DNA from: Cyathus striatus
Lineage: Eukaryota > Basidiomycota > Agaricomycetes > Agaricales > Nidulariaceae
Length of the DNA stretch: 64,000 bases
Assembly (NCBI GenBank): GCA_025738555.1
Contig: JAOVFP010000001.1
Coordinates: forward strand, 4,836,001 to 4,900,000
Reading direction: 5' to 3'
In this document: positions 3,097 through 44,546 of the stretch, piece after piece
Numbering within the stretch: the stretch's first letter is position 1
Layout of the letters: each line of letters starts with the position of its first letter
Translations under genes and position numbers: made by a program
The notes under the pieces: generated by a model
Database searches by the model: none
What the model was told of the DNA's origin: nothing
The model's input: the letters and a program-made list of their open reading frames with translations, nothing else

Positions 3097-4172
3097 TGCA
3101 GGCGGTGTATTAAGTACAACAAAGATACGCGCTACCGCAAAACTATACGAAATCCTTTGTGACCTTAATGTACTTATTATTCCCAACTGGTTCTTTTGTT
3201 CTCTTGAATATATTTCTGAAACTCGTATCTTTATGTCATGGTGGCACTCCCCGGTGCTTTTCGTTGCTTGTAGGTATGTGCAAGACGTAGTAATGCTAAC
3301 CCCCTCTGTCGATAAATTTCAAGGCATTTCTGAGGTTTGAGCCTAGCTCCAAAAATAGCTTTATAATCGTTGATTCTTGGTACAATTTGAGTATGTATAT
3401 TGTACCGCTGTCCGATGGCACCTACATCATTCTCAGCACTGAAATAAATACAGAATCCAAAAGTGGCTTAACTCACCAACAAAATTAACCATGAGTCCGT
3501 CCTCACATCTCAGCACCTTGATAGGCAGGTTGTTTCAATCCAATTCTGACACCACACTAAAGCCCGCACATGAAACATAGTAAGCAATGCTCCAAGGCTA
3601 TTTCCGCCACCTGCGAGTGACAACAGACATCAAGTAAGTCTTGCCGTGAACTACTTAATATTATAACTCGTTAATTTATATCGTTGGAGCCCTTATTCAG
3701 AACCTCACCGGAGGAATTCTCATCAAGCTTGAAAAGAGATACCTGATGTAAAACATACACCTCAAGCACAAGGTGGATCGAACCATCGTCTTTATTGAAA
3801 TGCAGGACATGAATCCGATAGCAAAACCCGTCATAGTTTTTTTTTGCCTGAGGGCCTGGGCCTGTGGAAAAGCTTGGATGTTTACCGCAGTATCTAGTAA
3901 ATTATTAGTAAATTTAGAGTTAAAGGAAACACAGGAATGCAGTACAAAGGAATTTAATCACTTTTATGCGGTCACTGGTGCTATCAGACGTATGGGTCAA
4001 TGCGTAATCTGGTATGATTGGTTATAGCTTCGGACACGGTTGTCAATCATACACTACATAGAATCAACATAGAATAGTTCTCCATCAATACCTAAGTATA
4101 TGGAATTTCAGGATAAGTGTTCCAGTTTGGTTTCAGTGGACGTGAAGTAACAAAACGCACTAACCAAGCCAG
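3097..4172. other. Intergenic, no gene seen
   Basis: About 1.07 kb with only short unrelated open frames on both strands. The right end should include the MED8 terminator and 3' UTR (minus strand). No recognisable protein block or RNA gene seen. Confidence 0.4.
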
Positions 4173-5273
4173 TCATGAAATCCCTTCCATCGGAGTCCCA
4201 GTCCTTCCAGCAGGAGACATCGGACCATTCGTACCGCCAGCAGGCGAAAACACTCCATTCGAGGTCGGGGACATAATATCGCTTCCGAACAACCCTACCC
4301 CGCTCCCAGAAGGTGAAAATAGAGGATCACTAGGTGAATCTTGCTGCTGAAGCACAGGAGCGGGGGACTGTCCGTCCATAGCTTGATCCACAAGTGCACC
4401 TTGAATCCCATTCATCTCGTCCTCATCTGAGCTATCACTTTCTTCTCCGTGGCCGTGGCCATGATCGTGGGCACCTTCGCCAGCATCGACATCGATAGCT
4501 TCCTGCGTCGCTTCCCCACGAGCCGTATCTTCCTTCCTCCCAAACCTAGGATCCCAATCCAACTCCTCAGGCTCCGGTTCTTCTACCTCCACGCGTTGTT
4601 TCCAATCAAACCTATCCCTAAGCATAAGCACGGCCCTCAGAGCCCTATCAACGCGCTTATCATGCGCCTCTGCAATTTCCGCGCATTCCCTAAGCACGTC
4701 CTCATACTCGGGTTTCTTCTTCTTGTAATTCGGGAACGCTTCAAGCGCCAGTGTCGGCTTCTCGTCTGTAGATGCGGTACCAAGGACACCTAACGATCCC
4801 TTTGTGCTCATGTGTCCCGCTAGCCTGCTCACCGTGTCGTTTTCTACGGTTAAAACGTCGGTTGTCTGTTGATTGCGCAAAAGCTGGATCACTTCCCCGT
4901 CCAATACTGCATCGGACATGGGTCCAATGGGGTGCAGCGCGATCCGTTCGTAGATGTTCCCTTGCCCTTGCCCCTGTCCTTGCAGTCGTGATGCTTGAGT
5001 TGGTAGAGGGTTAACGAGTGCATTGGAGAAGTTGTGTGTCTGGGAAAGAAGGACATTGTATTTGGAAAGGATGTCTGGCCATGAGGGCATGTAATGTGGG
5101 TTTCCGCCGGCATCGAGGGTATACTGGAGGGTTTGGATAGATTCTATGATTTGAGCTGCTTTGAAGCGGAGAGATTCGAGGTGGGAGACGGGGAGGTGGG
5201 CAAATTTGGAGAGGAGCGGGTCAAGGTTGGGATTGGATGTGGATGGAAGAGTTATGTTTGGTGCGAAGGCCAT
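4173..5273 (-). CDS. MED8: Mediator complex subunit 8
   Basis: Head-module subunit of Mediator, which links activators to RNA polymerase II in the nucleus. Single exon, 366 aa. The N-terminal half carries Med8 hallmarks: LESLRFKAAQIIESIQTLQ (about residues 33-51), MPSWPDILSKYNVLLSQTHN (62-81) and ERIALHP (109-115). The C-terminal half is low complexity: an acidic stretch with repeated HGHGHG and SDSSDEDE (about 270-286), then a Pro/Ser/Gly tail ending in three SPAG(R/G)T-like repeats. A Gln-Gly repeat (QGQGQGQG) sits near residue 100. Start chosen at the first ATG. It is divergent from the transporter gene at 5646. Confidence 0.9.
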   Translation of the reverse strand: MAFAPNITLPSTSNPNLDPLLSKFAHLPVSHLESLRFKAAQIIESIQTLQYTLDAGGNPHYMPSWPDILSKYNVLLSQTHNFSNALVNPLPTQASRLQGQGQGQGNIYERIALHPIGPMSDAVLDGEVIQLLRNQQTTDVLTVENDTVSRLAGHMSTKGSLGVLGTASTDEKPTLALEAFPNYKKKKPEYEDVLRECAEIAEAHDKRVDRALRAVLMLRDRFDWKQRVEVEEPEPEELDWDPRFGRKEDTARGEATQEAIDVDAGEGAHDHGHGHGEESDSSDEDEMNGIQGALVDQAMDGQSPAPVLQQQDSPSDPLFSPSGSGVGLFGSDIMSPTSNGVFSPAGGTNGPMSPAGRTGTPMEGIS

Positions 5274-21286: not shown

Positions 21287-22362
21287 TTAATCGAGTTCAT
21301 CAAGCCCAGCGTACTCCCTCTCATACATATCCATACCCTCTTCACGCCTGAAGAACAATCAGTAAAAGCATTCGTATCCAAATCAAAAATAGTTCACTTA
21401 CTTCAAAATCGAAAGGGCAGTCTTGCCGATTTTTCCAAAGATCTTTCCGAACCCTCGCTCCTCGAGTTCGTCAAAGTCACGCTCATACATATCCATCCCA
21501 TCCGCCTCTCGCCTACAATTATCTGTCAATATTGACTGCTTTTTAAACTAAACCCATTCTGACTTACTTCAAGATTGAAAGGGCAGTCTTGCCGATTTTT
21601 CCAAAGATTTTTCCGAACCCTCGTTCCTCGAGTTCGTCAAAGTCGCGCTCAGACATTTCCACCCCATCCACCTCTCGCCTACAATTGTCTGTCAAAATCG
21701 ACCGCTTTTTTAATCAAGGTATTCTGACTTACTTCAAGATTGAAAGGGCTGTCTTTCCGATTTTACCAAAGATCTTTCCGAACCCTCGCTCCTCGAGTTC
21801 GTCAAAGTCCCGTTCATACATAGCCATCCCGCCTTCTTCTCGCCTAAAATTGTCTTCAGCATCGACTGTCGCTTCCAATAACGATATTGTCACTCACTTC
21901 AAGATGGATAGAGCGGTCTTTCCGATTTTTCCGAAGATCTTTCCGAATCCTCTCTCCTCGAGTTCGTCGAAGTCACGTTCATACAAACTAGTATCTATGC
22001 CTTGCTCACGCCTATAGAAGTGTATCGTCACCAAATGATCTCATTTCCAAACAATGTCACTTACTTCAAGATGGAAAGGGCAGTTTTACCGATCTTGCTG
22101 AAGATTTTTCCAAATCCTCGTTCGTCAAGCTCGACATCGCGGGCGGAAATACCCGCCTCGCTAAGTTGACGCTCGTATATGTCTAAAATAGTGCGGCTGA
22201 TGATAAATTACTGTTAACCTTCGAAGGTAAGCAGACTATTAAGGTAAATACATACGCAGCAAGTTCCTCTTGCTGTGCCAATGAGCCAGCAGGGTTTGGA
22301 GCAGCGATAACAGAAGGGGCAACAAGAAGAGCGGCGGCAGCGAAAACAGCGATTTTGACCAT
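21287..22362 (-). CDS. Secreted precursor with five tandem cationic peptides, one per exon
   Basis: No known named family recognised. Seven exons (22362-22256, 22196-22065, 22011-21898, 21843-21733, 21678-21568, 21512-21402, 21347-21287) join in frame to 248 aa. Residues 1-21 are a signal peptide (MVKIAVFAAAALLVAPSVIAA). Exon 2 holds the first core, with Ser at position 7, and exons 3-6 hold GFGKIFGKIGKTALSILK unchanged. Each core is followed by Lys-Arg, a Kex2 site. The Lys codon is split AA|G by every intron and Arg is the first full codon of the next exon. Between sites lies an acidic spacer, for example MYERDFDELEER. The last exon carries only a spacer and ends LDELD. The core has four Lys, no acid, and Ile/Phe/Leu spaced for an amphipathic helix. 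Layout matches fungal Kex2-processed repeat proteins; acidic-pro plus cationic-core also recalls antimicrobial-peptide precursors. Activity is inference. Confidence 0.88.
21348..22196 (-). repeat. Tandem exon-plus-intron repeats of the peptide gene
   Basis: Lower exon borders fall at 21402, 21568, 21733, 21898 and 22065, a period of 165-167 bp made of a 111-132 bp exon and a 53-55 bp intron. Exons 3-6 are near identical and the introns share their ends and some of their body, so whole exon-intron units were duplicated. Confidence 0.85.
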
Positions 22363-22499: not shown

Positions 22500-22507
22500 C
22501 TTTTATA
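22500..22507 (-). promoter_or_regulatory. Possible TATA box of the peptide-precursor gene
   Basis: TATAAAAG on the minus strand about 140 bp upstream of the ATG at 22362. Distance allows a 5' UTR of about 100 nt. Motif-only call. Confidence 0.4.
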
Positions 22508-28847: not shown

Positions 28848-29730
28848 TATGAATATGTATACCTTTACTCTAGATGTAAACTTGAGTCAGTGATGTGCTA
28901 GCGGTGGTGCAGGCCAAAATCATAAATGTAACTGTGAGTAGGAGTGTAAACAAGTCCAAACACAATCAACTGCTGAAGCGGACAAGCCCTTTATGGTGTC
29001 AATATATTTGTCTGGATCTACTTCTAAGCTATAACATGTAGCTGAGTATGTTACCAGGATGTATACCTTTACTCTAAGTGTAAATTTGAGACCTGTGAGG
29101 TGCTGCTTGAAGCAGTGTTGTAGGTCAAAATCATGAGTGTAACTGTGAGTGGGAGTGTAAACAAGTCCAAACACAATCAACTGCTGAAGCGGACAGGCCC
29201 TTTATGGTGTCAATATATTTGTCTGGATCTACTTCTAAGCTATAACATGTAGCTGAGTATGTTACCAGGATGTATACCTTTACTCTAAGTGTAAATTTGA
29301 GACCTGTGAGGTGCTGCTTGAAGCAGTGTTGTAGGTCAAAATCATGAGTGTAACTGTGAGTGGGAGTGTAAACAAGTCCAAACACAATCAACTGCTGAAG
29401 CGGACAGGCCCTTTATGGTGTCAATATATTTGTCTGGATCTACTTCTAAGCTATAACATGTAGCTGAGTACGTTACCATGATGTATACCTTTACTCTAAG
29501 TGTAAATTTGAGACCTGTGAGGTGCTGCTTGAAGCAGTGTTGTAGGTCAAAATCATGAGTGTAACTGTGAGTGGGAGTATAAACAAGTCCAAACACAATC
29601 AATTGCTGAAGCGGACAGGCTCTTTATGGTATAACATGTAGTTGAACATGTTTAAACTTGAATAAACACAGCCAGGGCTGGTTTTTTATGGTCTCAATAA
29701 ATGTGTCTGAGTCTACTTACATGTATTAAG
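28848..29730. repeat. 211-bp tandem repeat, about four copies
   Basis: Units begin at about 28853, 29064 and 29275, each starting GTATACCTTTACTCTA and containing TCCAAACACAATCAACTGCTG and TTTGTCTGGATCTACTTCTAAGC. Copies 2 and 3 are almost identical. A shortened, diverged fourth copy runs to about 29730, next to the 3' end of the Plavaka transposase. The 86-aa frame that recurs every 211 bp on the minus strand is a product of the repeat, not a gene. Confidence 0.85.
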
Positions 29731-32700
29731 CTAAATTATTTACATGCAGAAACATATCTCCATCTACTGTATCCATGAGGTAGTGAAGACCAGGATCAGG
29801 AACAGGAATTCTCATACTGCTATCAAATACAGGGCACATAAGAGCCCCCTGGATGACAAAATCCAAAAGAAGAAAGGAGGAGGTCCTGTCTTCAATAAGA
29901 ATTTGACAGTTATCCCACAATGTCAAAGGACTCCATGAGTTTTCATGAAATTCATGTATCAATGCAATGTCAACAGTTCTCCCTGACAGCAATTGACAAT
30001 GCAGTAGTGATTGAAGGCAGGCTACAGTCATTCTAGAACTTTTACTGTCTGTGTTAATTATAACACAGTCATAACGTTTATGGTTATGAAATGATGGATT
30101 GCATCTCAAGATATCATGAGACTCTGTCCAGTCCTCCATGGACTGATATGTAATATAGAGACACTTGAATTGCTGGACCTGTTCATACAATATCCATTAA
30201 GCTAAGATATAGTTATCACTTTAAGAAATACTCACATAGATTAGATCTTCATAGCAAAGAGCTTCCTCTGGAAAATTGCATGTGATGAAGGAGCAAAGTC
30301 TGTCATCGAATGAAATATAATCACTGTCCTTCTGGGAAAACTTTTGTTCCACTTCCCGAGACTCCAAACTTCTTCCACTAATACATGCTCCAAAAGCCCA
30401 GTGCTTTTCACTCCCAGGCACAATATCCTCCAGATCTACTTCAGATATTAATTTTTGTTGAATGCTTTCATCAAAATTCATAATAGCCATATGAATAGCA
30501 GCTATTGCTTCTAGATTTTCATCAATTTTTGTCATCTAGATCCATGATTTCATTATATCACATATACATATTATCTTGAGAAATATTGAGATATATGTAC
30601 CTGTTTATCAATGTGTTTTTTGTTAGTTTGTGTATAAGCTTGAGCAGCTTCTTGTTGAAACCCCTCCCCAGGATGAGTGGACATATTATCAGTGGTACCT
30701 TTTTGTCATATTTCTGAGATGATATGAGAGACATAATGCTGCTTGGGAAAATTGAAGTTCTTTTTGTACATCATTGAAATCTACTGTAGGCACAATTTAT
30801 TTCAGTAAATTATATAAACTTCCAGTAGAACATTTGCATACGCTGCAATACTTTTTGTAGTCTTGAATTATTCCCTCCAGATGTTGAAGGTGACATTCTG
30901 TTATGCACCTTAGACCAATCATAAGTCTATACTTTTGATATGCTCATATACAATGAACAAGGGGAGAATTCTGAGGAAGAAGCTGAACAATGCAAGGAAG
31001 TATGCACTTTAGAAAGTTCAAGTATAAATTAAAGTTCATTATCAAGTACTTGTCAGGACATCTTACCTTAAGAATATCATAAAAGCATTGCCCATCAGCA
31101 AATGAAATTGTAGATACTGCATCAATATGCTTCAGGTCTTTCCAGTATGGAAATCTAGACATGCTAAATTATGCAAATTGGTGAATAACTTATCTGTACA
31201 AGTCAAGTAGTGCTTTAAGACTTACTTTCATGACAACTTTCCTAAACATTTGCTATCATCTAAAACATTGCTTAAAAGAACCTATATGTGTTTCCCCCAT
31301 TTACCGAGATCATCTGAATGTAGAGTATCATATGATGATGCAGCATATGGATTGGAAAATCGAAAGTCCCACAAGAAGTGCTACTCAGAAATTCAATCTG
31401 AGAAAAGAGGCTTTGTCACATGAAGTATAAAAAATTACTCACTTTTATATTGTGTAGTCCATGGCCTCACAGAATTTTTTCCCTTGATGTCTTTGAATGT
31501 GCATGTGAAGCCTGTTCTAACACAGAACACATATTTTCTGGTGTACGAAGCTCAAAAGACTCTGTTACAAGGTCTAGCTGTGACCGGTGCACAAGGCATT
31601 TTGGACAAGGGTAATGTGCTGTTGCAGCTCGGCATGCACAGAAATATGATGCTTCTTCACCATCCTGTGATGCAATGAGAATTCCAGGGTAAACGATTCG
31701 GACCACATTATCATTGCACATGTGAGTTTCTCCATATTGAGAGGGTCTTTTAAGGGAGTAGAAAACTCTTCCCAGGACTTGCTGATACACCTCTCTTTTG
31801 AATTCTGAAAATTCCAATGTCTCTGCAGCTCCACGCTCATTAGGGTGTCCTGGATCCACAACCTGCATACTTTTAAATTTCATATGAGGACAATACATTT
31901 AAGGACTTACCATTGGCATATAGCCTAGTAGTATCCCACCACCATTCCCTGATGCATTCCTGATTTTCCTTGGAAGCCATGCAGCATGAAGGATCATAGG
32001 ATATACTTTGACATGTTTTGTAACTAGGCCTTTATCAAGCCAAAAATGTAATGGAAGATAGCTATGTGGAAATGGACCATCATCAGGTAATGATGACTGG
32101 TGTATTGTAAATATTGTAAGTATGTGCCACACACTTTCAAAATTTAACTACTTACATCCACATTCCACCAAGTGTCAGCAGTATTTGGTTCATCAATGAT
32201 ATGGTCCTCAACATGTTCTGGTCCCCCATAACAATATATTTTGCAAACAGCATTCCAGACACTAACAGATGCTAGTGACCTGTCATGAATTAAACTAAGC
32301 ACATACTCCCAAGGATCTCGGTAGTAAAATTCAAAATCGAAATTCTTTCCCTGAAAAACAGCTGAAATTTTATCACGTCTAAACTGCAAATAATAAAGAT
32401 GATAATATCACAGTCAGTGTATAAGTTAGAGATAAATTAAGAAGCTCAATGAGTTACCTGAATAGTGTACTCCCTAGCTTTTGCAAGAGATTCACTCATG
32501 TCCTTGTAGCTGCGCATTGTGAGTCTACTTGTGCCATTAGACCATCCATTGTTGATGCCATTCAGCTGTTTATTGATGAGATCTTTGGAAAGAAGACCAT
32601 TCACAGCTGTTTCTGTGTATTCAAAATCTTCCCGTGTTCGAAATGGAGCCCAAGGTTGACAACATTCAGTGGCTGGTTCAAACACTGATGGCCTTGGCCT

Positions 32701-37465: not shown

Positions 37466-38188
37466 TTAACTGGGTTGTTCCCTGTGGTAATGTGTGAGCT
37501 CCTTAATACCCACTAAAACCCCTGCTTTGGATAGCCATTTGTCTGGGAGGGTGTCAATGAGAAGGTTTATATTGAGAATCTGTTGCCAGGTGTTTTGGAC
37601 AATATTGTGCTTGAGGGCTCGTGTCCCATAGGCATGGCTATCTGTAAGTATTTTGTCATGGTTTATTCTAGTGTTGATCGTTTTGATCCACCTGGATTCT
37701 ATTTCTGTGGGTGTGTGTATTTTTAAAGGGTTAGCTTCATCCCCTATGCACCATTCACATCAGAGTTTCCAAATGAGGTAGACTGCTTCAGAGACTATGA
37801 TGTGGAAGAGGCAGGTGGGTGCTTTTAGAAGTTCATTTTCACCTGATTTAATTTCAGCAAGTGATATGCCCATGACTAGGCCTATTGATATGGAGGGCCA
37901 TGGTATGTTTGTGGATTGCCATGTTGCTTGTGCAAGTTTCCAGACAGTATCTTGGCCAGAGACTTGACAGTCAAAGAGGATATGTGTAATGTTCTCCACC
38001 TCTACATTACATTGGGTACAGGGCATGTATTGGTCTTTTAATGGGGTGTGTTCCCAGAATGAGCCTATCTTGTGGGAGTCATGGAGTGTTTTCCACAGGA
38101 ATGTTTTAACTTTTTTGGTTAGTGTGGTTCCATGTAGTATGGATTTCCAGATAGTTTCTGGTGTGGGGCATGAGCCTGTGTTCACTTC

Positions 38189-40151
38189 CATCAGCAAATA
38201 CCCACATCACAAATTTAGGCAATTAAGGTGGAAAAAAGCTTGCTTTAAGATAAATTTAGTTGAAAATAGTACCATAAGACGTCTTAGGCAAATAAGGAGA
38301 GGTCCCATACTTATTTCAACTAATAATATTGGCATAAGAAGCCATTAGCTTGAACTAAGGTCATTTAAGCTGTAAATTAATATAATTTAATTACATTGTC
38401 CTTCTTTATGTCATCACATTAGGAATATATTAGTTAGGTTTGAGCTCAAACTTAGTTGATTTAAGCTATGAATTAATCTAATTTAAATAGATATTGTTCC
38501 ACTTTAATCATACATTTAGGCAGAAATTAGGTAGGCTCTTGCAATTTAAATTGCATATAAGGAGGGAATAGGTTTATTTCACAACAGATACTACCAATGG
38601 ATATGCATGACTCAATATTTGCTATTAATCTACATACAATGAATGACTGATAAATGCAGCAACAATCTATGTATGGAATAACGAGGTGTCTATGTATCAC
38701 TAAGAGCAATCATGAGCAAGTAAAGGAACTAGTTGAGCATTTGCTGAGGTCCATTATATTAAAATAGTGACAGGTTGTGGGAGCAGCAGAGGCGAACAGC
38801 AGTGGAGAGAGTTCAGACAACAGCAAGAATGTGAGAGAGAGATAGAGTGTGCGAGAGAAACAGAGCATGCGAGAGTTTGAGTGAAGAGCATGAGTGTGAG
38901 AGTGTGAGTGAAAGAGAAAGCACAAGAGGGGGCACAAGAGAGTGAGAGAACGAGAGAGAGGCACGCAAGTGAGGGTGCAAGAGGGACTGAGGGAGAGAAT
39001 GAGTGAGAGGCACGCAAGAGAGGGCACAAGAGGGAGAGAATGAGAGAGGGCACATAAGAGAGGGTGCACAAGAGAGGGTGCGAGAAGGAGGGAACAAGAG
39101 AGGGTGCGCAAGAGAGGGCGCAAGGAGGGAACAAGAGAGAGGGTGCATGAGCAAGGGCGCGAGAAGGAGAGAAGGAGAGGGTGCACGAGTGAGAGCACGA
39201 GAAGGAGAGGAGAGAGGGCACAAGAGCGAGAGGGCACAGGAGGGAGAGCACAAGAGTGGATAGTCCCTGTAGCCAAACTTCAAGCTTCAAGCTTCAATAG
39301 ATGGATATAAGTAAAGGGGATGGAAGTACTTACTGGCACGGACACCCAGCTTGACAAAACATGAATCAAGTACACCCAGACAAGTTCTTGAAGGCTCAGA
39401 TTGCTGAGTTCTGACTCCTACCACCCAGGACAGAAGATAAATGAAAGGTTGGAAGGGGTCTTGAGGGAGAGGGGAGAGCAATATGTGTACGCATGGCTTG
39501 CAGAGGTGGGTGGACCATGGAAGACAAGAGGGAGAAAGTAAGGGGAAGGTTTGGGGAAAGTTGAACGTGCTCAGAGTTCAAAGAGTTGAACGACAACGTG
39601 TCTGTGACGTGGAAAAGTCACGTGATAATCATGTCAGCTTTCCAATGATTTGATTGGCTTAGGAGCTCTTTGGCTGAATATTTTGGCTTAACCTTAATGG
39701 CAGCTGTCGGACTTGCATTTAGCTACATAAAGACTTTGGAATTTTGTTGTGCATTACAGGTAGATGTATTGATAACACGTTGAATATTATAACTTTGTAA
39801 ATGCATTTTGTTTTTTGAATCATTAGGATTATGTGTAAGGCCAAAGGCAGTACAGGTATTTATAAGACTCGTTACTCAAGGGACATACTTCAGTACTCTA
39901 CCAAAACTCTACTATAATATAGTTAATAAAAGGTCAAATTAATAAGTATTAGTAGTTATATAGACCTACTATTGACCTAAATGCGTGTGAAGTAGTGCAT
40001 TTAAGCCAAGATTAGTAGGCTGTACATGTGCACATTAGTACACTTAAGCCGAAATATATTACATTTAAGGATATGTATAGAAATATAAGGCAAGGGGTAC
40101 ACCTTAATTTAACTAACTTAACTAATTTAGTCAACGGGGAATTTGCTGATG
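38189..40151. mobile_element. 1963-bp terminal-inverted-repeat element inserted in the LINE
   Basis: Left end CATCAGCAAATACCC (38189), right end the inverted copy GGGAATTTGCTGATG (to 40151); 11 bp match perfectly. The two bases TC flank both sides. Removing the element and one TC joins the LINE frame as ...QAI-EVNT..., exactly in phase, proving the boundaries. No transposase inside, so it is non-autonomous. It contains a strongly purine-asymmetric block and AT-rich ends. Confidence 0.82.
38818..39255 (+). repeat. Purine-rich GAGA/GGCACAAGAGAG low-complexity block
   Basis: About 430 bp almost without pyrimidines, built of irregular units such as GAGAGGGTGCACAAGAGAGG. It produces three overlapping long minus-strand open frames made of Leu, Ser, Pro and Cys; these are compositional and not genes. 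Confidence 0.85.
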
Positions 40152-43100
40152 TCAATTGCCTGGGCAGTGGTGTCAATGTTAAGTTGTGATGCAGTTCATT
40201 TCTTAGTGGTTTTACAATTTTTGATTGCTTTGTAGAGTTTTGATTGTGTCATGCATGACAATTTAGCACCAAGGGATTCAGCCCATTCACCTTTCGAGAG
40301 GTCTATTTGGTCTGGTTGTGGTTTTTGTGCTCCTTCAGCTGCTAGTTGGTCTGCTCCTTCATTCCCAATATTTCCACTGTGTCCTTTGACTTTTTTTAGG
40401 AGTATAATATTTGGTGTAGTGATAAGTGTGACATAGAGTGTGCAGAGGATGGCAGCATTTTTCATTTCAATGAAGCCCTGGTCAGCCCATTTCTGAAGGT
40501 GGGTAGCAAGGCCATTGATGCAGTATTGGGAGTCACTGATAATCTTTATAATTTTTGTGTTTAGGTTTTGTTGGATGCTGAGAAGAATTGCAACTAGTTC
40601 AGCTGCATTGTTGGTGGCTAGGGCATGGGGAAGACATATTGCTGTATTGTTAGGGTGTGCTTCTGCATACCAGAGGCCACCACCTGCAGATGTGCTTGCA
40701 GTCCCATTTGCTTCACAGGATCCATCAGTATGTATAGTAACTGTGTCAGCAGTCCAGGGTGTCCGGGGTGTGATGGTGTGCTGGTGAGGTGGAGTGATGT
40801 TGTCAATGGAGGAGAATACATGGATGTGGTGTAGGGGGTTGTCTGGGTGTGAGATGGGGAAGGTATGTAGGAAGTCAGTAGGTGGCTCATAGCCAGGAGG
40901 CATGGTTAATTTTGGGGGGTGGAATCTTATTTTGTATAGTGGGTTCCATTCAGGGCATAGGGATTGTAGTTTTGTGTAGGCATTAGCTCAGCATTGAATA
41001 GGGTTGGTACATCCTATATGCCGGTCTTCCACACAGTGGTTACAAATACAGTTGTGTTCATTGATATGTCCTGTGGCCCAGTTTTTTCTTGCATGGGTAG
41101 CCAGGTCTCCTGTAGACCAGAATTCATGGTTTTCAAGTTGGCATGTGCCATATTTGTCATTGTACACTCTGTTTTTTCCTTCAATTTTGGCTAGGTGGAA
41201 CCAGAAAGGCATTGCAAGTTTCATGCAAGGGGAGATTTCTGTAGGTGCAAATTTTGCATCATGGTTTAATGCTGCTCTTAGCATACATTGGAGGGATTTT
41301 GGAATAGCTTTAGATTGGTCATATATTTTCCAGTTCTGCAATAGGAAGTTGTGGCATTGTTTGTGGCCAATGTGCTTTTGCACTTCTGCTTTTGCTGCTA
41401 GAGCCAGGGCATGGTCAGCTAGTTTGGCCCAGGGAGGGCAGCTTATTGGGTCAGGATCAGTATATGTCTTGAGTTTCATGAGTTCAATTGCATCATTATG
41501 GGCTTTTAGGTCTAGTAGGTTGTGTCCTCCCTTCTCTATGGGGAGCTGTAGAATTGCAATGCTTATTGCATTGTATTTTTTTTCACCTTTTTTGTTGTAG
41601 ACAAAGTTATCAATGAGTTTAACAAGGTTGTTTTGGATGACTGAAGGCATTCCTTGAACTCTGGTTAGATATTGTGTGTAGCTTCCCACAATTGCAGAGG
41701 CTGCTTTGCATCTCCCTATCAGAGTAGGGTTGAATCACTCCCAGTGTAGGAGTGTGTGGCAGACTTTTTCCACAGTTGGTTGCCAGACATCATCTTGGGA
41801 GATATTGTAGCCATAGAATGCTCCAAGTATGCAGATGGGTTCACGATCATTGATGATATGGATGTTGGTTGGTATGGGTGTATGGGTGGCATTCATGCAT
41901 CAATTTTGTCACATTAGGTCACGTGTTTGTTTGTTGCCCAGTGGGATAATGGCTGTTTTTGCAATATTGAATTTGGCCCCTGAGGCTTTACACCATTGGG
42001 TAAGTTCAGAGAAGAGTGTGCATGTATCATCTTCATTGCCAAGAAATATTGTGGTGTCATCTGCAAAGAGGTTAATTTGCAGAGGGTTGGAGAGTCCTGG
42101 GAGGTTAAGACCTATTATGGTAGATGCATGGATATGACTTGCTAGTGATTCAATTGCAATGTTAAATAGGAGGCATGAGAGGGGGTCTCCTTGTTGTACT
42201 CCCCGGATGATGAGATATCCTAGGCCAATGATTCCATTGAGAATAATTTTTGTATGTGCTCCAGTGTATAAGGCTTTCACTGAGTTTATGTATTCATCTG
42301 GGAATCCCAGTTTTTTTAGTGATTTCCAGAGGAAGTCATAACGGATACAATCATAGGCTTTCTCTTGGTCAAGACGGACAATGGATCCAGGAGTGTTAGT
42401 GGAGTCACAGTGGTGCAGTACAAGTGTAATGAGCTCAGTTTGGTCTGTGATGGATCTATTCTTCATGAATCCAGCTTGGTCAAGTTGTATAAGGTCAGGG
42501 GCAACAGTAGATAAGCAGTTGGTGAGGGAGCATGTCATTATTTTATAGTTTGTGTTTAGAATAGTGATGGGGCAGTAGTTTTCAATGAGTGCCCTGTCAT
42601 TTTTCTTATGAATTGGGCACATCCAACCTTCATGGAATCCAGTGCTTGGTGTGACACTGAACATGCTGATGTCAGCATACAGTTGTTGTAGAATATTAAT
42701 TATGTCTGGGGAGGGTTCTTCTGTTAGGCAAGAGGCAATGTGAGCAGCATCGAGCCATTTCCATATTTCAACTAGAATTCCATCAAGGCCTGATGCTTTG
42801 TTGGTTGGGACTTGTTTGAGAGCCACCCTGATTTCTCCAGGAGAGAGGCCAGCAGCTAATTTAGTTTTTTTATCTGGTGAGATCTTATGTTTGAGATGTG
42901 ATAGGACTTCTTCTGTTGTGTCATATTGCTCAAGGTCATCAAGCCTATACTCTAAAGAGGATTGGAGGGCATCATGGTAGTCTGTGGAAATTTTTACCAT
43001 TACATTAGAGTCCATTGTGTATTCAGGAAGGAGGCCTTGGGGATTTGATCAGAGTGAGTGGATAGTTTCTCTGGGTTTGTGTTCTTGGTTAATCATAGTC

Positions 43101-44546
43101 AAACTTGCTATTTGTTTTTCCCTCAAGGTGAAAGTGGGCTGCAATTTTGTCATGTTCCCATTTTGTTTGGGTGGCTTGGAGTTTTTTGATATTGACTTCA
43201 ATAGTGGTTAGTCGGTGGGAGAGGTCATCTGGGCTGAGAGATTCTGCAATGGCTAGTGTATCCTTGCGGCAGGTGATCCATTGTGAGATTTGGATATTGT
43301 GATGTAGTCCTTGGTGTTTTACTATATCACTTACCTGTGTGAGGACACAGTTTTTGTATGAGGCCCATAGTGTCTGGATATTTAGGTCAGGTAACTGTGG
43401 TTAATCCTGTATATTTTTTAGGGCAGTGCATAGTTCTTGGGTTAATTTTTGTATGCACTTCTGGGCTCCTTTGTTCTTGGCTACATATGCTGGGAGTGCT
43501 CTTCAGCCTTTTCCAATGAAAGGTTCTGTAGGTGGAGCCAGTTGCATTGAGACCAGAGAGTGGTCTGTGAACACACCTGAGGAGGAGATAGTCCATTCAT
43601 GAGAGAAGTCAATGAGTTTTTCATTAGTATATATGCGGTCTATGCGGGAGCAGGAGGTGAGCTGGTTGCTGAAGGTGTAGTCTAGTGAGGTGGGGTTCTC
43701 TAAGTGCCATCCATCAAATAGTTTGAAGTGGTCTTTAAGTGTGGTGAATGTGTGTGGTGCATTTACAGCCTCCCATGGTACTGGTATGCAGTCTATTGAG
43801 GATTCAGTCATGTTGAGATCTCCCAAGAGGATGTGCATTTTTCTGCATGGTCTGTGAATACGCCAGGCTTCTTGGAGGGTTGCCCAGAAGGCAGTGTTGG
43901 CTTGTTCATTGCCAGATGGAGCATAGACTGCTGCTATATGTGGCCAGTTGTCATTCCTGCAGTGGAGTGATATGGCTATTGCTTGCCCAGGGACAAGCTC
44001 AACAAATTCATGTGTTTCCCAGTTGACTAGGCCTTTGTGGAGTATGATGGCTACACCTCCTCATTCTGAGGGGTATTCTGGGTCTGGGAAGTTTATTATG
44101 AGGAGATGGGGATGGTCAGTTTGGATTTCATGGAGTACAGTCTCAGTGATGTGAGTTTCCTGCACAGTCATTATACCAATGCGAGAATCTCTCATCAAAG
44201 CATGTACATGATTCCATTTAAGACACATTGCTGGAGTACCTCCTCCTCAGATGTTTAGGGTAGCGATCCGCAATGCAGATCACGAGTTCTTGAGTTTGTA
44301 AGCATTGACATTTGTGGTATTAGTGGTGATGTCATTGAGATATTCCTCTTGAGGATTTGGAGTATCCAAATCCCCTTGCATTCTGGTGGTGTCTGTGACA
44401 CCTGATGCTGGGGGTGATTGTGAGCTTTGCTCCTGGTGGGGAGCAGGCTCATTGTGGTGCCATCCTACCCCCCCGGGGTCATCATTGGAAGTTAAATGGC
44501 ACCTAGATTTGCACTTCCTCTGCCCCCAGGGTTGTAAGTTGTCCAT

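Follow-up and report, generated by a model that had tools for sequence, protein, structure and literature searches.

The window, by which we mean the whole 64,000-nucleotide stretch of Cyathus striatus DNA analyzed here (from a genome of 107 Mb in 24 contigs), carries on its minus strand, at 22362-21287, a seven-exon gene for a precursor with five peptide cores. The start ATG lies at 22362 and the stop codon ends at 21287; removal of six introns of 59, 53, 54, 54, 55 and 54 nt leaves an open frame encoding 248 amino acids. A splice search that started from the ATG, the stop codon and generic patterns for donors and acceptors recovered the identical six introns at both penalty settings, all of them in phase 2. 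The original prediction, made from the letters of the window, had placed a gene of seven exons at 21287..22362; these coordinates proved exact and the frame is kept across the exons, and we add the strand, which had not been given. The features of this gene, and of the elements to its right, are the following.

22502-22507, minus strand: TATAAA, a probable promoter element by sequence, beginning 145 nt upstream of the ATG
22256-22362, minus strand: exon 1, with start codon, signal peptide and first part of the acidic propeptide (intron removal, splice search)
22197-22255, minus strand: intron 1, 59 nt, phase 2 (splice search)
22065-22196, minus strand: exon 2, propeptide with ELDER end and core 1, GFGKIFSKIGKTALSILK (22117-22065 plus last base 22011)
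22012-22064, minus strand: intron 2, within the Lys codon of the first Lys-Arg site (splice search)
21898-22011, minus strand: exon 3, Kex2-site Arg, acidic linker, ELEER, core 2 (21950-21898 plus 21843)
21733-21843, minus strand: exon 4, Arg, linker, ELEER, core 3 (21785-21733 plus 21678)
21568-21678, minus strand: exon 5, Arg, linker, ELEER, core 4 (21620-21568 plus 21512)
21402-21512, minus strand: exon 6, Arg, linker, ELEER, core 5 (21454-21402 plus 21347)
21844-21897, 21679-21732, 21513-21567 and 21348-21401, minus strand: introns 3-6, at the same place in the later units (splice search)
21287-21347, minus strand: exon 7, last Kex2-site Arg, terminal acidic tail EEGMDMYEREYAGLDELD, stop
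31470-31898, minus strand: Plavaka transposase fragment (Pfam)
37763-44060, minus strand: LINE-like element with zf-RVT, RNase H, reverse transcriptase and endonuclease-like domains

Each core had been predicted to have an exon of its own, and one core per exon is indeed what the spliced model contains, with the refinement that the intron falls within the Lys codon of the Lys-Arg site. All five core introns interrupt this codon (AA, intron, G CGN), and each of exons 3-6 comprises the end of a Lys codon with the Kex2-site Arg, a linker and a core, and stops inside the next Lys codon. Given this position of the introns, each core exon (132, 114, 111, 111 and 111 nt) forms a symmetric phase-2 module, whose gain or loss would leave the frame intact. 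The 165-bp exon-intron unit was detected as a tandem array, and the coding pattern for EER-GFGK, which the window contains four times, was absent from all 100 dinucleotide shuffles; together these results indicate that the five-core repeat is not a product of chance. We are nearly certain that the locus is a real gene.

The precursor gene has a GH88 gene (minus strand) and a cytochrome P450 gene (plus strand) to its left, and the Plavaka transposase and the LINE-like element to its right. The Pfam scan of the window covered 40 of its 108 listed open stretches, and nothing in these 40 suggested a biosynthetic cluster; a dikaritin or RiPP cluster was considered and rejected, as the scan gave only P450, GH88 and transposon-type domains and none of the UstYa matches listed for the genome lies in the window. 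The window also holds a tandem array at 28855-29630 (211-bp unit, 3.7 copies, 95% matches) and, at 38826-39256, low-complexity GA-rich repeats in which the minus strand has long open frames.

The spliced protein opens with a signal peptide, MVKIAVFAAAALLVAPSVIAAPN, recognized by eye, which is followed by an acidic propeptide ending in ELDER, five cores separated by four acidic linkers ending in ELEER, and an acidic tail ending in LDELD. The core is the 18-residue sequence GFGKIF(G/S)KIGKTALSILK, with Ser in core 1 only and with no Tyr, Trp or Cys. ELDER precedes core 1, ELEER precedes cores 2-5, and Lys-Arg follows each of the five. The signal peptide, the five copies with a Gly-to-Ser change in the first, and the flanking motifs (5/5 cores) had all been described before and are all seen in the 248-residue protein; with five repeats and five Lys-Arg sites, the sequence supports the view of a putative secreted multi-peptide precursor with a Kex2 site after each core. 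Charges alternate along the chain (-5, +5, -6, +5, -6, +5, -7, +5, -7, +5, -7), a core with its Lys-Arg contributing +5 and each inter-core linker -6 or -7, and the free 18-residue peptide would carry +4. The hydrophobic moment of the core is 0.61 compared to 0.24 in shuffles (p 0.0018). In a single-sequence AlphaFold model of one 36-residue unit, which is of moderate confidence, a helix spans residues 21-35, within the core, with a pLDDT of 82-83 there; the model of a full-length relative, P0007, was unusable (pLDDT 39.8).

We found clear signs of selection on the core. Among the five copies 13 of the 18 codons vary, 12 of these 13 only synonymously, and pooled over 10 pairs pS was 0.56 versus a pN of 0.013. 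When the observed nucleotide differences were placed neutrally, a mean of 15.6 amino-acid changes resulted versus the one observed, and none of the 20,000 neutral simulations, in which unit 4 was taken as ancestor, was as conserved as the five cores. The core peptide is therefore under purifying selection, and the five-core gene is a functional sequence rather than a decaying repeat. The last 11 linker residues are constrained as well (pS 0.49, pN 0.019, units 2-5).

Relatives were sought in three protein searches, each of which scored about 8000 candidates. The window protein as lone query matched one protein, P0001 (E 0.0098); P0001 as query matched seven more; and a profile of these eight and the window protein matched 17 proteins at E <=10, 15 of them below 1e-3, with E-values and a share of ELD tails that are biased by the inclusion of the window protein and its tail. 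Named sources of the profile matches include Agrocybe pediades (3.6e-44), Crepidotus variabilis (1.4e-26) and Clonostachys (9.7e-39 and 3.2e-6), all of them predicted proteins, and metagenome proteins are also among the relatives. We take Agrocybe and Crepidotus to belong to the Agaricales and Clonostachys to be an ascomycete. Two profiles rebuilt without the window protein scored it at 74.9 and 64.2 bits, compared to 29.1 and 24.6 bits for the best of 1000 unit-shuffles that keep the repeats. As these profiles lie far above the shuffles, homology is supported beyond composition and repetition; as the direct search gave one relative only, the family link rests on the chain through P0001 together with the rebuilt-profile scores. 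A search of fungal proteomes had been proposed along with the original prediction; the protein searches yielded relatives (profile scores of 64-75 bits versus a shuffle best of 29), and these scores support the conclusion that the window protein is not an orphan and belongs to a wider fungal family (P0001-P0009, P0011 and P0012) for which no name was found.

Counts over relatives given here use 20 proteins, P0001-P0020, of which P0019 (E 1.5) and P0020 (E 3.9) are of uncertain membership. The relatives keep an acidic linker, a Lys-rich amphipathic core and an acidic tail, often ending in ELD (exactly so in 11/20, with LD in 14/20), and their core sequences differ. P0001 seems to be derived from unspliced DNA and has several cores within a single open frame, so that an exon per core may not be general in the family. 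Eighteen cores were picked by hand, 2 from the window and 16 from 15 of the 20 relatives, and 16 of these had a hydrophobic moment above that of shuffles (p < 0.05), the cores of P0010 and P0018 having no significant moment. The full precursor had no Pfam match above cut-off. DUF3197 (2.4e-5; 24.6 bits versus 27 needed) and KH_KhpA-B (0.0017) stayed below it, no stretch passing in either case, and were dismissed as artefacts of repetition and composition; PDB matches were attributed to chance (best E 0.11). The literature searched contains no description of the family, and the supplementary lists of Umemura and of Le Marquer may include members unnamed. Within Pfam, PDB and this literature, the earlier statement that no named family is recognizable therefore stands. 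The precursor had also been called new, which holds for the family and not for the class, as Kex2-processed repeat proteins (KEPs) have already been published.

The sequence contexts of Arg and Lys in these precursors were markedly different. Across the 21 precursors Leu occupied P4 of 230/499 Arg versus 7/415 Lys, and an acidic residue lay within 3 residues of 428/501 Arg versus 96/419 Lys; the control, seven ORF stretches elsewhere in the window, gave 9/74 Arg and 9/89 Lys for Leu and 34/74 Arg and 27/89 Lys for acids. The segregation by nearby acids was significant in 19/21 proteins (not in P0005 and P0013), with Fisher values that are too small because the repeats of one protein do not count as independent samples. 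In the window protein Leu, Ile or Met occupies P4 of every one of the 18 Arg, Leu in 7 cases. According to the excerpts of PMC8528282, the extended Kex2 motif LxxR has Leu or another aliphatic residue at P4 and Arg at P1, accepts residues including Glu and Ile at P2, and is disfavored by Asp at P3. LEER before cores 2-5 and ILKR match this motif, whereas LDER before core 1 has the unfavorable Asp, as do LDER and LDAR sites in several relatives; the FIR ends seen in many relatives fit at P2, with a P4 that is often Asn and so not aliphatic. Among 64 Arg-bounded Lys-rich cores of the relatives (P0015 and P0020 contributing none), 53 are bounded by a single Arg at each end, without Lys-Arg, and in 8/20 relatives neither Lys-Arg nor Arg-Arg occurs past residue 20. 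The excerpted text of PMC9769878 describes apparent cleavage after single Arg among KEP products in Pichia.

Kexin P-domains (P_proprotein) were matched at two loci of the genome, and an exon-by-exon search with prokaryote controls gave no match to the trypsin family (PF00089) in it. Kexin cutting at both Lys-Arg and LxxR would therefore be the simplest route to the 18-residue peptide. The original prediction included a further cut, at the lone Arg that precedes GFG, and the agreement of ELEER with LxxR and the single-Arg boundaries of 53/64 cores in relatives make it plausible; we consider it likely that both cuts would be made. Arg sites inside the linkers (YER, SER) may also be cut, which makes the true products uncertain.

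We searched the genome for other precursors of this kind. The window unit matched only its own five exons, with no same-core paralogue. Searches with P0001, P0005 and P0012 missed even the window gene and P0009 matched it at E 0.117, so that distant paralogues may still exist; the best match elsewhere for these four queries was weak (E 0.094, contig C8). The tail pattern [LF]-[DN]-E-[LF]-D-stop (TAA/TAG) occurs at 9 places compared to 3 for a backward control, namely the window gene, five repeat precursors with other cores, one probable case (L015) and two that look like chance (L009 and L012). An exon search with one other-core precursor gave 33 exon matches at about ten places, and four further loci among these carry tail variants (REYYDLEDLD in two, REFFELIELD and REFYELNKLA). 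Altogether nine other loci (L021, L022, L023, L024, L026, L042, L043, L044 and L045) encode precursors whose core is longer and of another type (STTGGRVAKKVAENVVES...KKKR, with variants), and which have acidic linkers and the window tail or a variant of it, e.g., EEREFYDLNELD and EEREYYDLEDLD; we know of no name for them. L023 has a clean splice model with the tail REFYDLNELD and 13 introns (7 when introns are penalized more heavily), in phase 2 throughout in both versions, whereas the models of L021 and L024 are imperfect. L023 has the layout and tail in common with the window protein, and scored -6.3 and 1.3 bits against the window-family profiles, i.e., no profile homology. The shared tail and layout are consequently not proof of common descent with the window family.

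Several further observations were made in the course of these searches. L024 (C17:2.89 Mb) and L026 (C23:1.755 Mb) are nearly identical loci on different contigs with matching flanking open frames, and probably represent a recent duplication. At L022 and at C10:76.3-81.6 kb, similar precursor units flank, as judged by eye, a gag-like open frame of about 840 residues, perhaps a retroelement insertion. L025 may contain one more precursor, at approximately 3563-4570, whose cores are rich in Arg and Gly (SPEKRSFDAENLQARRGSGRRR...) and which ends in IRELNELD. UstYa (DUF3328) gave at least 32 exon matches on 11 contigs, some of them close together (C3:2.56 Mb, C9:0.32 Mb), and the source fungus may make dikaritin-type peptides.

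By the features assessed, which are a signal peptide, near-identical repeats with dibasic sites and the presence of Kex2 in the organism, the precursor is to be classed as a KEP. The explanation that we favor, with reasonable though limited confidence, is that of a Kex2-processed repeat protein that would release membrane-active peptides. A Golgi kexin would cleave the precursor behind both Lys-Arg and Leu-x-x-Arg (LEER/LDER), the C-terminal Arg would be removed by a Kex1-type carboxypeptidase, as for Ece1, and the 18-residue peptide would be secreted. The acidic linkers would hold the helix neutralized until cleavage, after which the freed peptide (+4, strong hydrophobic moment) could become helical on membranes and permeabilize competitors, grazers or another interacting organism. 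We infer this membrane activity from charge, hydrophobic moment and layout, and lean slightly toward it as the main role; an antimicrobial or lytic role is likewise what we would infer for the core peptide. In C. cinerea, no phenotype was seen in six KEP knockouts, and none of the synthetic KEP peptides assayed, whose sequences differ from the window cores, was antibacterial, as far as the excerpts of PMC9769878 report.

The near-identity of the five cores, maintained by selection, would also suit a receptor ligand. The released peptide might be a signaling or pheromone-like molecule, an alpha-factor-type KEP product whose identical copies raise the dose, and mating factors are among the characterized KEP products in the excerpts of PMC9769878. 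However, the relatives keep charge and amphipathicity rather than core sequence, and core copies vary even within the single precursors P0012 and P0008, a pattern more in keeping with membrane action than with recognition by a receptor; the window protein, when read through, showed no STE13-type XA/XP spacer repeats. Since the family conserves physics and not sequence, membrane activity is favored over a ligand, which we regard as rather improbable. An amphipathic, secreted, multi-copy product could instead coat hyphae or other surfaces, as a surface-active or fibril-forming peptide like those derived from Ustilago Rep1, which are KEP products forming amyloid-like fibrils (PMC9769878, in part). 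This we consider unlikely, given that the core is short, Lys-rich (+4) and predicted to be helical, in a comparison that takes Rep1 from its description only, and that linkers of matching negative charge are those of spider lytic-peptide precursors.

Two other readings concern what becomes of the precursor. The stable product might be the whole 37-residue acidic-cationic unit, or an intact structural or wall repeat protein, if only Lys-Arg or nothing were cut: Lys-Arg is the canonical Kex2 site, the charges within a unit nearly balance, and LDER before core 1 has the unfavorable Asp at P3. Yet cores 2-5 are preceded by LEER, which agrees with the extended Kex2 motif, and the predominance of single-Arg boundaries means that a unit defined by Lys-Arg seldom exists in the relatives, so that we hold such a product to be less likely still than a surface coat. 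A RiPP precursor of the dikaritin/ustiloxin type, with cyclized or otherwise modified cores, would share the signal peptide and Kex2-flanked repeats, and a P450 gene lies 5 kb from the precursor gene. However, the GH88 gene sits between the two, the core has none of the residues Tyr, Trp and Cys, and none of the at least 32 UstYa matches of the genome is in the window, the nearest on the same contig being 3.5 Mb away among the matches listed; this reading we consider highly improbable. A KEP releasing membrane-active peptides remains our preferred reading. KEPs are widespread in fungi and their functions largely unknown (PMC9769878, in the excerpts). The present family defines a sequence grammar of LxxR and Lys-Arg sites around Lys-rich helices, acidic linkers and an ELD tail, part of which genome surveys for dibasic sites would miss, and the gene and its relatives supply a short list of synthetic peptides for testing.

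Published systems share parts of this design. Excerpts of PMC6339444, PMC7329392 and PMC9769878 report KEPs in Agaricomycetes and describe the signal peptide, near-identical repeats and intervening Lys-Arg also found here. The window precursor differs in adding the alternation of acidic linker and cationic helix, the extra LxxR sites, the ELD-ending tail and an exon per core, and the KEP peptides named in the excerpted PMC9769878 look, on reading, unlike the window cores. K2PP effectors have in common an LxxR extended Kex2 site after a pro-region, but they release one protein after an N-terminal pro-domain rather than repeated short helices (PMC8528282, in the part consulted). Ece1 of Candida is, according to the excerpts of PMC5784256, a secreted polyprotein that Kex2 cuts after Lys-Arg and from which, once Kex1 has trimmed the C-terminal Arg, the membrane-damaging peptide candidalysin arises; the likeness is drawn from description only, and the toxin of Ece1 is one among several different peptides, whereas the window cores are all the same and come with acidic linkers and LxxR sites.

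The closest layout is that of spider-venom complex precursors, in which cationic linear peptides lie between anionic linkers that start with an iPQM (Arg, with Glu at most 3 residues after it) and end with a PQM (Glu at most 3 residues before Arg), as given in the excerpts of PMC8290080; some spider transcripts end in a truncated linker with an iPQM and no PQM (PMC7889660, likewise in part). In the window protein a PQM lies upstream of 5/5 cores and an iPQM downstream of 5/5, and the tail, a linker without a final Arg, carries no PQM. Over the 21 precursors including the window protein, a PQM lies upstream of 47/69 and an iPQM downstream of 45/69 Arg-bounded Lys-rich fragments, counted without a shuffle control and by a rule that drops some cores (at least 14 residues, at least 3 Lys, net charge of at least +2 as Lys minus acids). 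The spider PQM protease is trypsin-like. By contrast, the window system is fungal, in a genome with kexin P-domains and no trypsin-family gene detected, and its protease probably differs from that of spiders; we read the likeness as convergence in layout. More tentatively, and at less than even confidence, a fungal superfamily without a name, spanning Agaricales and the ascomycete Clonostachys, may have independently reached the spider-venom design of cationic lytic peptides silenced between anionic linkers, with Arg cuts in an acidic or Leu-x-x-Arg context and a truncated end linker, and in this genome, with one symmetric phase-2 exon per core and about ten loci with different cores, it may constitute a secreted peptide-weapon repertoire. 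If so, the number and type of cores could be changed by exon duplication with the frame intact. The exon-per-core structure makes the origin of new peptides by this route directly traceable, and, read as convergence, the likeness between fungi and spiders is a striking example of two kingdoms arriving at the same means of making and muzzling lytic peptides.
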